This document shows positions 5,722 through 51,629 of a stretch of DNA of 64,000 nucleotides, piece by piece (position 1 is the stretch's first letter; every line of letters starts with the position of its first letter). The position numbers and the translations under genes were made by a program. Location of the stretch: positions 1 to 64,000 of the forward strand of contig NZ_JAAMFK010000002.1 in the NCBI RefSeq assembly GCF_018437275.1, given 5' to 3'. The notes beneath the pieces are model-generated. The model searched no databases and was not told the DNA's origin. It worked only from the letters and a program-made list of their open reading frames with translations. The stretch comes from Fructobacillus broussonetiae. Its GTDB lineage: Bacteria > Bacillota > Bacilli > Lactobacillales > Lactobacillaceae.

Positions 5722-5975
5722 TGATTTAAATCGTTGACTAGGCGAGTAGCAAGCGGATTCTTTTCAGGAAGCTCACGGTTATTGGAAGTGAGTAAGAACC
5801 GCTGGTGAACCACCCCTAGGAGTGCGTTGGTGAACCTTTAGTAGCCATCGTCGGTCGTGCCCGTTACGCACAAACGTTTTTATACGTTATGAGGCCTATT
5901 TAGCGATGGATGGGCAACTATGAGGTGGGACCGCGTCTTTTCGCCCTCTAAGCAGCAATGCTTGGAGGGCTTTTT
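5722..5975 (+). ncRNA. T-box riboswitch, probably histidine-specific
   Basis: The leader has Stem I closed by CTAGG (5738-5742) and CCTAG (5815-5819), the AGTA loop motif (5745-5748), the T-box sequence GAGGTGGGACCGCG (5922-5935), and a 12-bp terminator stem (5943-5954 with 5959-5970) followed by five T. The base in the T-box that reads the tRNA discriminator is G, which pairs with C73; among bacterial tRNAs C73 is the mark of tRNA-His. The specifier loop contains CAC (5811-5813), a histidine codon. Uncharged tRNA-His would therefore switch on the transporter genes behind it. T-box class is certain; specificity is inference. Confidence 0.93.
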
Positions 5976-48315: not shown

Positions 48316-48906
48316 ATGGCGGAAACGATAAAGATTGAGTTTGACATCAAGCCACAGCAACAAGAGCGTCCTCGTATTGGTGTAAAGAAAGTTCTTAGCA
48401 AGATGGGATACTACAAAAATAAGAACTATTTGTATGATCCGGTAAAGACGGTTAACTACAAAAAGAAGGTGGTGATAAATTTGGGATATACGGTGGATCA
48501 GTTATTTACTGATTATTTCTCTGGAACAATTGAAAAGCAGATTGCTTGGCGTAGATTTGAGTTGCGTTTTGATAACCCTGTTCGTGATGAAAACATTGGC
48601 GGTGGGAAGAAGCAAAATGAAATTAGCCGGGCGCTTGATAATCAGATTATTAGGGAAGAGTCAGACCCCGAAATTATCCAGTTAACTATCCGGTATGAGT
48701 CGGTTAAACAGTTTATGCAAACAATTGACCAACAGATTGTCACAATACTTGATTATCATTATGACAAGCAAAAGCACTATACGTGGCCTAAAATTGCTCA
48801 AATGATGTACAAGTCGAAGAGCCAGTGTATTCGTGACGTACAGCGTATAAAGGAAAAGTATTACAATTCTCATTGGTCACGACCTGTGGAAAACTTGACC
48901 CTCTAA
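48316..48906 (+). CDS. apparent fusion of RusA N-terminal fragment with RinA/DUF722-type late regulator
   Basis: The 196-residue frame has two parts. Residues 1-57 (IEFDIKPQQQERPRIGVKK, YLYDPVKTVNYKKKV) look like the N-terminal half of a RusA Holliday junction resolvase; the catalytic aspartates of the second half are absent. Residues 58-196 (DENIGGGKKQNEIS, ESDPEIIQL, then a basic C-terminal helix-turn-helix YTWPKIAQMMYKSKSQCIRDVQ) match RinA/DUF722-type regulators of late genes. A TTG at 48482 may start the regulator alone. A deletion joining two genes is the likely origin. Confidence 0.68.
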   Translation: MAETIKIEFDIKPQQQERPRIGVKKVLSKMGYYKNKNYLYDPVKTVNYKKKVVINLGYTVDQLFTDYFSGTIEKQIAWRRFELRFDNPVRDENIGGGKKQNEISRALDNQIIREESDPEIIQLTIRYESVKQFMQTIDQQIVTILDYHYDKQKHYTWPKIAQMMYKSKSQCIRDVQRIKEKYYNSHWSRPVENLTL

Positions 48907-48909
48907 AAA

Positions 48910-48929
48910 CATGCGACTATCATGCGACT
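48910..48929 (+). repeat. two CATGCGACT direct repeats, 11 bases apart
   Basis: CATGCGACT occurs at 48910-48918 and 48921-48929, one helical turn apart, directly after the late-regulator gene. This suits a transcription factor site controlling the late genes or the adjacent RNA. Confidence 0.5.
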
Positions 48930-48963
48930 TTTTGCCTTAAAAAACGTGTTATATTTGTATTGT

Positions 48964-49247
48964 GGTTATTTCAGATAGCCAAGGGAATGAGCAACCCATC
49001 TCCAAATGGTGTCTTGTCATGAGTGCTTGCCTTTCAATTTATCGCATTGGTTAGCTCGTTCCCGTTATGAACAAAGCCAAGTGGCCCGTGGTTGCCTGCA
49101 AGCGGTTGTTAAATCAACGCCACGGTTAGAAATATCGTTACGGGTGCGACTCCCGTGTTGTTCTTAGCTTGCGATGACTAGTTTCTATACTAACTAAGAG
49201 CGAGCATATGTGACCATTTCCTGGTGGTTGTGGTCACGGTACATATG
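48964..49247 (+). ncRNA. large structured RNA candidate with tRNA-like domain
   Basis: The 410-base gap at 48907-49319 has no gene but many helices: GGTTAT/ATAGCC (48964-48969, 48975-48980); a 10-bp GGGAATGAGC/GCTCGTTCCC (48983-48992, 49054-49063); a tRNA-like unit with GAACAA/TTGTTC (49069-49074, 49158-49163), GCC/GGC, CCGTGG/CCACGG (49086-49091, 49120-49125), GTTG/CAAC and a seven-base T-loop-like arm ACGGG/CCCGT (49140-49144, 49152-49156); TAGTT/AACTA; and a final CATATGT-GACCA stem (49205-49216, 49231-49247). It is too short for GOLLD or ROOL RNA. Function unknown. Confidence 0.6.
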
Positions 49248-49352
49248 ACTGTTTTCATTTTGGAAATGGTCATTTTTGACATTAAATGACAATAAATGAA
49301 TATTTGATATATAATTGAAATGAATAAAACTTATTGGTTAGGAGATGTTGAG

Positions 49353-49883
49353 ATGGATGCATTCACATCACGAGTTCGACGCACCATTGGAATTGATGGG
49401 TTGATTTCTACAGTTGTCGGGGCGTTTATTACTATTTGGCCAGAAAAGAGTGCCAGCTTTGTTGCGGGTATGATTGGATTTGCTTTTTTCGCAATTGGGG
49501 TCTCTAAGTTAGTAATTTCTATTCGGGATACAGAACAAGGTCGCTCCAACCGTATTATCGGTATTATCATGTCAATTCTTTACATGGTGGCAGGTGTTTT
49601 GATTCTTATCGATCTTGAAACGGCGGCCCTATCACTTCTGATCGTAGTGGGAGTCTTCACTGGTTTGACCTGGGCTGTTGAAGGAATTGTGCAAATGGCA
49701 ATCATTAATCGCTGGGGAAGCAATCGAGTATGGCCGTTCATTTCAGCTTTGATCAGTTTGCTAGCTGGATTGACGTTGGTATTTAGCCCATTCTTCGGTG
49801 GATTGCTATTGTGGGAATTCCTCGGAATTATGCTACTAGTAGTTGGTATCGTTAAGCTGATACAGTTCGCTACCATGCGTTAA
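49353..49883 (+). CDS. HdeD family (DUF308) membrane protein, prophage cargo
   Basis: The 176-residue protein has six membrane segments in three repeats (IDGLISTVVGAFITIWPEKSASFVAGMIG pattern), typical of HdeD-like acid-resistance membrane proteins. GGAG lies eight bases before ATG 49353; a TATAAT stands at 49310-49315. Its own terminator marks it as an independent cargo gene between early and late phage genes. Confidence 0.83.
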   Translation: MDAFTSRVRRTIGIDGLISTVVGAFITIWPEKSASFVAGMIGFAFFAIGVSKLVISIRDTEQGRSNRIIGIIMSILYMVAGVLILIDLETAALSLLIVVGVFTGLTWAVEGIVQMAIINRWGSNRVWPFISALISLLAGLTLVFSPFFGGLLLWEFLGIMLLVVGIVKLIQFATMR

Positions 49884-50858: not shown

Positions 50859-51629
50859 ATGACAAAACGTGATGAAGCTAAGCAAGACTACTTAGCTGGT
50901 ATGAAGTACAAGGAGATTGCTGAGAAGTATGATGTTAGCTTAAGTACAGTTAAGTCTTGGAAGTCTCGTTACTGGTCAGATGAAACCAAGGTTGCAACCT
51001 CTAATAAAAAAGTTGCAACCAAGTCGCAAAAGGTTGCAACAAAAAAAGAGCTACATCCAGCTATTCAAGAGTTGGAAGATAGCAACCTAAATGACAAGCA
51101 AAAAGCCTTTGTTAGCGAGTATGTGAGACTTGCTAATGCGACTCAGGCTTACATCAATGCGTATGATGTTGACTACAATATAGCCAAAACAACAGGGCCA
51201 CGATTGTTGGAAAATGTTGGAATTAAAAGTGAAATCAAACGTCTGCGTCAGGCTCGATTAGCAGAGCTCGACATAGACGTTTTTTCGTTGGTCGATGATA
51301 TGGCCAAAGAGGCCAAGGCTGATATTGGATCGTATGCCGATTGGGGTTCTGATGAGTTTCAATACAAAGATGAAACCACCGGTAAAGAGCTAACAGGACA
51401 CAAGTCTTGGGTTGCCTTAAAAGATAAGTCCAAAGTCGATACTAAGGCTATTAAGAAGATTACTGTTGGCAAAGATGGTCCAATTGTCGAATTACATGAT
51501 CGCAATAAAGCTCGCAAGGAACTATTAGAGTATTTGAACGGCAAGGGTGTATTTGATAGCGGGACTAGCAATGGCGAAATGATAATTAACATGGACTCAT
51601 TCGAGGGGAAGGGAAATGGCAACAATTAA
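50859..51629 (+). CDS. phage terminase small subunit
   Basis: The 256-residue protein has an N-terminal helix-turn-helix (GMKYKEIAEKYDVSLSTVKSWK) and the terminase small-subunit core LNDKQKAFVSEYVRLANATQAYINAY. A spacer holds three KVAT repeats. It recognises the packaging site. It overlaps the large subunit gene by 14 bases. AAAGGAGGAG precedes the ATG. Confidence 0.92.
   Translation: MTKRDEAKQDYLAGMKYKEIAEKYDVSLSTVKSWKSRYWSDETKVATSNKKVATKSQKVATKKELHPAIQELEDSNLNDKQKAFVSEYVRLANATQAYINAYDVDYNIAKTTGPRLLENVGIKSEIKRLRQARLAELDIDVFSLVDDMAKEAKADIGSYADWGSDEFQYKDETTGKELTGHKSWVALKDKSKVDTKAIKKITVGKDGPIVELHDRNKARKELLEYLNGKGVFDSGTSNGEMIINMDSFEGKGNGNN

Follow-up and report, generated by a model that had tools for sequence, protein, structure and literature searches.

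Background

What does a temperate phage keep between its late regulator and the next gene when that space holds no evident protein? In the 64-kb stretch of DNA studied here (the window), which contains a Fructobacillus prophage, a gap of 413 bases (48907-49319) separates the stop codon of the regulator (48906) from the start of the next gene (49320). A sequence-only reading of the window had described a 410-base gap without a reading frame, holding a structured RNA with a tRNA-like domain in the phage late region. The gap was found essentially as described, and no ORF of 60 or more amino acids lies within it; its description as frameless does not hold in full, as a 53-codon ATG frame (49006-49167) is present and crosses the tRNA-like unit.

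In the present study, we examined the anatomy of this RNA, compared it with homologs and with more distant loci behind related regulators, and considered what the RNA may do. We found that the observation holds and extends further than a reader of this one sequence could have known: comparative data bear out a structured RNA with a tRNA-like domain at that place. The slot that it occupies is general; related phages carry real tRNAs there, and the large RNA ROOL can also occupy it. Among titles and abstracts of the open-licence literature, we found none that describes these units or the slot.

Organization of the locus

The regulator upstream of the gap matches PHROG 2198 (E 1.5e-14) and also Pfam DUF722, and resembles the Alt activators of late transcription. 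Its first 50 or so residues are RusA-like and are fused in frame to the Alt-like domain. Since rusA and the Alt-like regulator are two separate genes in loci L006, L013, and L015, the prophage seems to retain only a small part of rusA. The first gene on the 3' side (start at 49320) encodes a DUF308 protein. This gene (region 49286-49883) is located between the terminator and the terminase genes, and a separate, near-consensus sigma-70-like promoter (ATGACA-18-TATAAT) that serves it lies directly behind the terminator; the gene looks like a moron. The small and large subunits of the terminase are found at 50859 and 51616, about 1.5 kb downstream of the gap. Elsewhere in the window, Rfam gave ordinary matches to a 5S rRNA (312-428) and a T-box leader (5725-5951). 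The features of the locus are as follows.

48316-48906, + strand: Alt-like activator of late transcription, N-terminal part of about 50 residues RusA-like (PHROG 2198, Pfam DUF722)
48911-48929, + strand: operator-like direct repeats ATGCGACT-ATC-ATGCGACT with 11-bp spacing (copies at 48911 and 48922)
48950-48955, + strand: putative late promoter -10 element TATATT within TATATTTGTATTGT (sequence common to several loci)
48964-48980, + strand: 5' terminal hairpin (folding)
48983-49063, + strand: 5' domain, closed by a 10-bp long-range stem (folding, homolog comparison)
49069-49163, + strand: tRNA-like unit (motif scan, homologs, compensatory changes)
49069-49074/49158-49163, + strand: acceptor GAACAA/TTGTTC, 6 bp plus an A-G mismatch
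49076-49085, + strand: D-like arm, GCC/GGC, 3 bp
49086-49125, + strand: branched arm in the anticodon position, closed by CCGTGG/CCACGG
49125-49137, + strand: conserved motif GTTAGAAATATCG
49140-49156, + strand: T arm ACGGG-TGCGACT-CCCGT, stem of 5 bp
49167-49205, + strand: hairpin 1 of the 3' domain, inner stem GCTTGC/GCGAGC (covariation of the inner stem)
49210-49237, + strand: hairpin 2 of the 3' domain, loop region TCCTGGYGG (covariation)
49239-49245, + strand: GTACATA box (invariant in nine aligned loci)
49245-49278, + strand: intrinsic terminator, predicted 13-bp hairpin and T run (fold z -3.75)

The locus thus contains all the parts of an Alt-driven late leader slot, namely the Alt-like regulator, the 11-bp-spaced repeats, the late -10 element, the structured RNA, and the terminator. 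Transcription would start near 48962-48965, and from the promoter and terminator features an RNA of approximately 48964-49278 is expected. An RNA of about 285 bases (48964-49247) had been proposed earlier; its probable end is instead the terminator near 49278, which gives about 315 nt. This terminator was listed by one terminator scan and was absent from the list of a consensus scan.

The whole RNA folds better than most shuffled sequences (z -2.86; 2/200 shuffles as good), as do the 5' domain (z -3.83) and the 3' domain (z -3.13) by themselves. The tRNA-like unit alone is weakly better than chance (z -1.50; 15/200 shuffles as good); the support for it comes from comparison, namely from its being a single match in the motif scan and from helices that are kept through compensatory changes. 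The 10-bp long-range stem of the sequence-only reading is present (48983-48992 pairing with 49054-49063, one G-U).

The tRNA-like unit

From the 5' end, the unit consists of the acceptor, the D-like arm, the branched arm, TTAGAAATATCGTT, and the T arm, and the acceptor-like, D-like, anticodon-position, and T-arm-like parts that had been recognized from the window are all there, the D-like one with 3 bp. Compared with the canonical 7-bp acceptor and 5-bp T stem, the unit has 6 bp plus an A-G mismatch and a 5-bp T stem with the loop TGCGACT; TGCRANT loops are common in this class of units. A scan for an acceptor plus a T arm gave the unit as the single match on both strands of the 64-kb window, with a loop rule that had been widened to TGC loops after the window unit had been seen. 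A canonical anticodon arm (5-bp stem, 7-nt loop, U33) is absent from the unit. As the branched arm and GTTAGAAANATCG replace it, the unit cannot decode.

The sequence-only reading had proposed an Rfam search; we ran Rfam together with ARAGORN, and neither called a tRNA or a known family for this RNA. ARAGORN found no tRNA and no tmRNA with a tag peptide in the window, and Rfam at threshold gave no tRNA in the window and no family in the window RNA. When Rfam matches down to E = 10 were considered, all were far below threshold; those overlapping the unit included YrlA and a tRNA-like element of tymoviruses. The YrlA match (Y RNA-like, RF02553; 49110-49234) reached 17.7 bits against a gathering score of 69 (E 0.54) and was rejected; no Ro60/Rsr (TROVE) partner of YrlA was detected in the genome (91.8% complete). 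By the tests run, the window RNA falls outside the canonical tRNAs as well as GOLLD, ROOL, tmRNA, and YrlA. The comparative data show a non-decoding tRNA-like domain, in agreement with its earlier description as a mimic or a strongly altered tRNA.

Homologs in Fructobacillus

A blastn search gave matches in five of the 13 genomes of the genus, four of which, including that of the window, keep the RNA nearly in full. Among these four (the window, L003, L004, and L005), the unit is 96-98% identical, against 84% for the interior of the 5' domain and 74% for the operator region. Both arms of the long-range stem are identical in the four homologs, so that this stem shows no covariation. The regulators of L004 and L005 are only 36% identical to that of the window. 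L014 and L015 have regulators 87-88% identical to that of the window and yet carry a different RNA, with an Rfam-grade tRNA domain, at this place. As the same RNA is found behind divergent regulators and a different RNA behind near-identical ones, the RNA is a cassette able to move without the regulator.

The four near-identical units have most of their differences in the T loop. A second T-loop type, GGCAGYA instead of TGCRANT, was observed in otherwise similar units (L004:781-876, L176, and L179). The acceptor and T stems are invariant in the four close homologs; thus, their covariation rests on the distant units described below. The gap sequence gave no match in phage and plasmid collections. 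Outside the genus, the weak DNA matches (L007-L012) were set aside as apparent chance similarity, and a scan of L007 for tRNAs and Rfam families found none.

Distant units and compensatory changes

Phages of the Leuconostoc type and others also carry units with the inserted motif GTTAGAAANATCG, and the pattern GTTAGAAA(N)(A/C)TCG recurs beyond the window between the anticodon-position stem and the T arm. Carriers are L033 (another genus), the Leuconostoc-type loci L044, L210, and others, L217/L219/L227, and L176 and L179, which are two prophages of genome G329; the regulator of L176 is a PHROG 248 activator. The pattern was found in 30 stretches of viral contigs, of which 15 were treated as units by eye and context. 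A regulator was detected upstream of 11 of these 15 and not of the other four, one of which has only 56 upstream bases. One model match, L178, looked like chance and was dropped.

In 13 units with nine distinct stem sets, 170/171 cells were paired and 16 of the 19 pairs had two-sided changes. None of 2000 column shuffles reached that paired count, and arms combined across sequences paired at 0.64. Since MAFFT misplaced the distant L015 (set A1) and L033 (set A2), these pairs were counted on hand-placed arms, which biases the count towards pairing, though most registers are set by the motif and the T arm. The 19-pair count excludes L228, whose acceptor is broken, L218 and L239, which lack an acceptor or anticodon-position stem, L234, whose T stem fails, and loci with the same stems as rows already included; L179 was kept despite one acceptor mismatch. 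An absence of covariation in homologous phages had been named beforehand as an observation that would speak against the RNA, and the opposite was found.

The 3' domain also covaries. In nine loci, the inner stem of hairpin 1 has two-sided changes at 5/5 pairs (42/43 cells paired), and hairpin 2 at 5/7 pairs (61/63 cells paired). RNAalifold on the MAFFT alignment of this domain gave two-sided changes at only 3 of 16 pairs, due to the misplacement of L015 in that alignment. A GTACATA (or GTACATN) box 3' of a hairpin recurs among Fructobacillus and Leuconostoc-type leaders, also in L033, L042, L057, and L060; beyond the nine aligned loci, it was recognized by eye. A 20-nt hairpin (7-bp stem, loop TGGAAT or TGAAAT) was likewise noticed by eye just 5' of the tRNA or tRNA-like units of L014, L015, L038, L044, L048, L060, and L210; the pairs that form its stem are very different in Leuconostoc-type loci and in Fructobacillus loci.

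The slot behind Alt-like regulators

We collected 145 gaps behind Alt-like regulators, which fell into 55 clusters. A 6-mer repeated at exactly 11-bp spacing was found in 28/55 clusters (shuffle expectation 0.91), and GTAKTRT-like letters within the first 130 bases in 39/55 (173/1100 in shuffles). In the Lactococcus phage TP901-1, Alt is described as binding upstream of the start site, at four imperfect direct repeats (PMC13123087).

A tRNA or tRNA-like unit lies within 1 kb downstream, in the sense orientation, in 22/55 clusters; the corresponding counts were 0/55 upstream, 0/55 antisense, and 1/1650 in dinucleotide shuffles. The scanner was written after set A had been seen; in the clusters fetched after that, it found a unit in 6/24 (set B) and 2/5 (the later set C). 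The element is not universal, as 33/55 clusters lack a unit by the strict scan, a number that overestimates absence: the scan misses the L063 unit (seen by eye) and the tRNA-Lys of L134 (called by ARAGORN). The tRNA-Lys of L061, also called by ARAGORN, is another that it misses. Real tRNAs in the slot include those for Asn (L015), Ala (L060), and Lys (L061). Some units are reduced to little more than an acceptor and a T arm (47-63 nt). A terminator-like site follows the first unit in 16/22 clusters (68/440 in mononucleotide shuffles), although at least five of the 16 sites (L033, L038, L044, L054, and L089), as read from the sequence, are unit arms or other hairpins.

None of the 27 counted units encodes CCA (a 28th, L077, is truncated and was skipped), and the discriminator is followed by T in 21/27, a context that fits RNase Z processing. 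Host tRNA genes also mostly lack an encoded CCA (21/27 distinct genes examined under a loose rule, with 30 of the 35 tRNA matches taken); thus, its absence is not special to the units and was rejected as a hallmark.

Comparison with known RNAs

Like the window RNA, ROOL (RF03087) is a large ornate phage RNA; to our knowledge, neither ROOL nor GOLLD has a known function. The window RNA is about half the length of the 574-position ROOL model. ROOL and GOLLD (RF02032), which had been described as longer than the whole gap, both lack a match in the window at the Rfam gathering score. Both are described as occurring near tRNA islands, and GOLLD, a phage RNA too, as able to carry tRNAs in its linker (PMC12286853). 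A GOLLD search of 181 Lactobacillaceae genomes gave no match, but the controls were silent too, and the result proves nothing.

The ROOL search gave four loci in 201 genomes. One of them, L243, follows a PHROG 248 activator and a similar-looking promoter. A single late promoter and a single terminator-like site (a hairpin with a T run) enclose its whole series of ROOL and tRNAs, with mini acceptor/T-arm units of 47-48 nt. The order at 1440-2666 of L243 is a 48-nt mini unit, ROOL, tRNA-Lys, tRNA-Asn, a second mini unit, tRNA-Ser, and tRNA-Trp. Its regulator was found by profile search only, and tblastn of the ROOL flanks would have missed it. For each of the three remaining ROOL loci, a profile search with the nearest listed upstream ORF gave no regulator family.

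Phage tRNA genes share with the window unit the slot and the acceptor/T-arm logic (L015, L060, and L061), whereas the window unit has no anticodon loop and is called by neither ARAGORN nor Rfam. The late leader of TP901-1 is similar in having the Alt activator, a late promoter, a tRNA-Lys with two further units, and a terminator; it differs in the units themselves and in lacking the GTACATA box. In that phage (L061, AF304433), the tRNA-Lys and the two tRNA-like units are located at 1987-2562, between alt and terS. ARAGORN calls the unit found by the scanner a tRNA-Ala(cgc) and Rfam does not, and the other unit was seen by eye; there is no tRNA among the features shown in the record AF304433. 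The named Listeria sRNA rli62 (RF01486) matches the 5' part of the leader in a Listeria-type phage locus, L075, but the window RNA did not reach its gathering score. At 1920-2052 of L075, rli62 is the 5' part of the prophage late leader, and a Leu-like tRNA mimic is located downstream.

Discussion

We propose, as a possible reading that we hold with some reserve, that the locus encodes a late noncoding RNA in which the tRNA-like unit is recognized and cut by host enzymes, and that the freed mimic acts in trans. The RNA, of about 315 nt, would be made late in the phage cycle from the Alt-activated promoter to the intrinsic terminator. Its middle third would be a tRNA mimic that has kept the acceptor, the D-like arm, and the T arm, and in which the branched arm and GTTAGAAANATCG have taken the place of the anticodon arm. 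The host tRNA machinery would recognize the elbow of acceptor and T arm, with RNase P cutting near 49068/49069 and RNase Z near 49164, and cleavage would separate a stable tRNA-like module from a 5' and a 3' one. In related phages, such punctuation would serve to set ROOL or real tRNAs free. Once released, the mimic may act late in infection on a factor that binds tRNA.

The unit lacks the CCA end on which bacterial RNase P usually relies, and this speaks against processing. An interaction of RNase P with RCCA is described, and the same report describes an acceptor with a T stem-loop as a sufficient model substrate of E. coli RNase P (PMC11143913). As the acceptor and T arm are kept across the units, processing by RNase P and RNase Z would be the simplest reading. 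It is favoured by the single scan match in 64 kb, by the sense-only placement (22/55 downstream against 0/55 upstream, 0/55 antisense, and 1/1650 shuffles), by the persistence and covariation of the acceptor and T arm even where units have shrunk to 47-63 nt, and by the ends of the units (CCA in 0/27, T after the discriminator in 21/27). The joining of mini units, ROOL, and four tRNAs between one promoter and one terminator-like site in L243 points the same way, as does a unit that is 96-98% identical although two of the adjoining regulators are only 36% identical to that of the window. On the other side, the conserved motif and the elaborate arm exceed the needs of a cleavage signal, 33/55 clusters are without a unit by the strict scan, and the fold energy of the unit itself is only slightly better than that of shuffled sequences.

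The missing or altered anticodon loops of many units could also be explained if the mimic were a decoy or substitute in an arms race, occupying a tRNA-targeting host defence enzyme or another tRNA-binding enzyme, with cassettes exchanged accordingly; the Rfam-tRNA units of L014 and L015, behind regulators 87-88% identical to that of the window, would suit such an exchange. Phage tRNAs are described as countering retron-Eco7 and PrrC170, but in the retron case rescue was lost once the anticodon had been changed (PMC11555353). The window unit, by contrast, lacks an anticodon loop, and we consider this explanation unlikely. A role in cis, in which folding or cleavage of the RNA controls read-through into the late operon, seems similarly improbable. 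Like the pR'-tR' segment of phage lambda, the RNA is placed between the late promoter and a terminator ahead of the late genes, and a terminator there makes read-through control possible; such sites follow the first unit in 16/22 clusters against 68/440 shuffles, and that of TP901-1 lies directly before terS. However, at least 5 of the 16 sites are unit arms or other hairpins, many clusters are without units, and a separate promoter serves the gene that follows in the window. A strict cis role is also disfavoured by close relatives whose regulators are near-identical but which carry other RNA throughout the stretch from promoter to terminator.

That the units are decayed, functionless tRNA genes would agree with the real tRNAs in the same slot (Asn in L015, Ala in L060, and Lys in L061), but two-sided changes at 16/19 pairs, a motif common to several genera, and a unit that is 96% identical against 84% for the interior of the 5' domain make decay very improbable. 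We give equally little credence to a DNA-level packaging element (pac or cos) or a packaging RNA: the terminase genes are about 1.5 kb downstream in the window, but terS is not adjacent, the content of the slot is highly variable, and the compensatory changes point to RNA. The 53-codon frame is taken as a chance frame, and a conserved small protein is the least probable explanation of all. L004 and L005 keep this frame open, as does L003 in a shortened form from a later ATG, but there is no obvious ribosome-binding site, several stops occur over the homologous unit of L033, and pairs change on both sides.

More broadly, it is plausible, though by no means assured, that temperate phages of Lactobacillales and of Listeria-type hosts reserve a late-promoter slot for 'tRNA-punctuated' noncoding RNAs, with exchangeable cassettes from which non-decoding mimics, real tRNAs, and ornate RNAs, ROOL among them, are produced jointly at a late stage of infection. 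The window RNA would then represent a mimic class of its own, with the branched arm in place of the anticodon arm and with a conserved motif, GTTAGAAANATCG, that reads as a binding or docking site. The slot includes even the model phage TP901-1. If a common slot with small tRNA-like RNAs is true, these would be short, genetically tractable relatives for testing the function of ornate late phage RNAs, and the tRNA annotation of these phages would be missing a class of non-decoding tRNA mimics that is maintained by selection.
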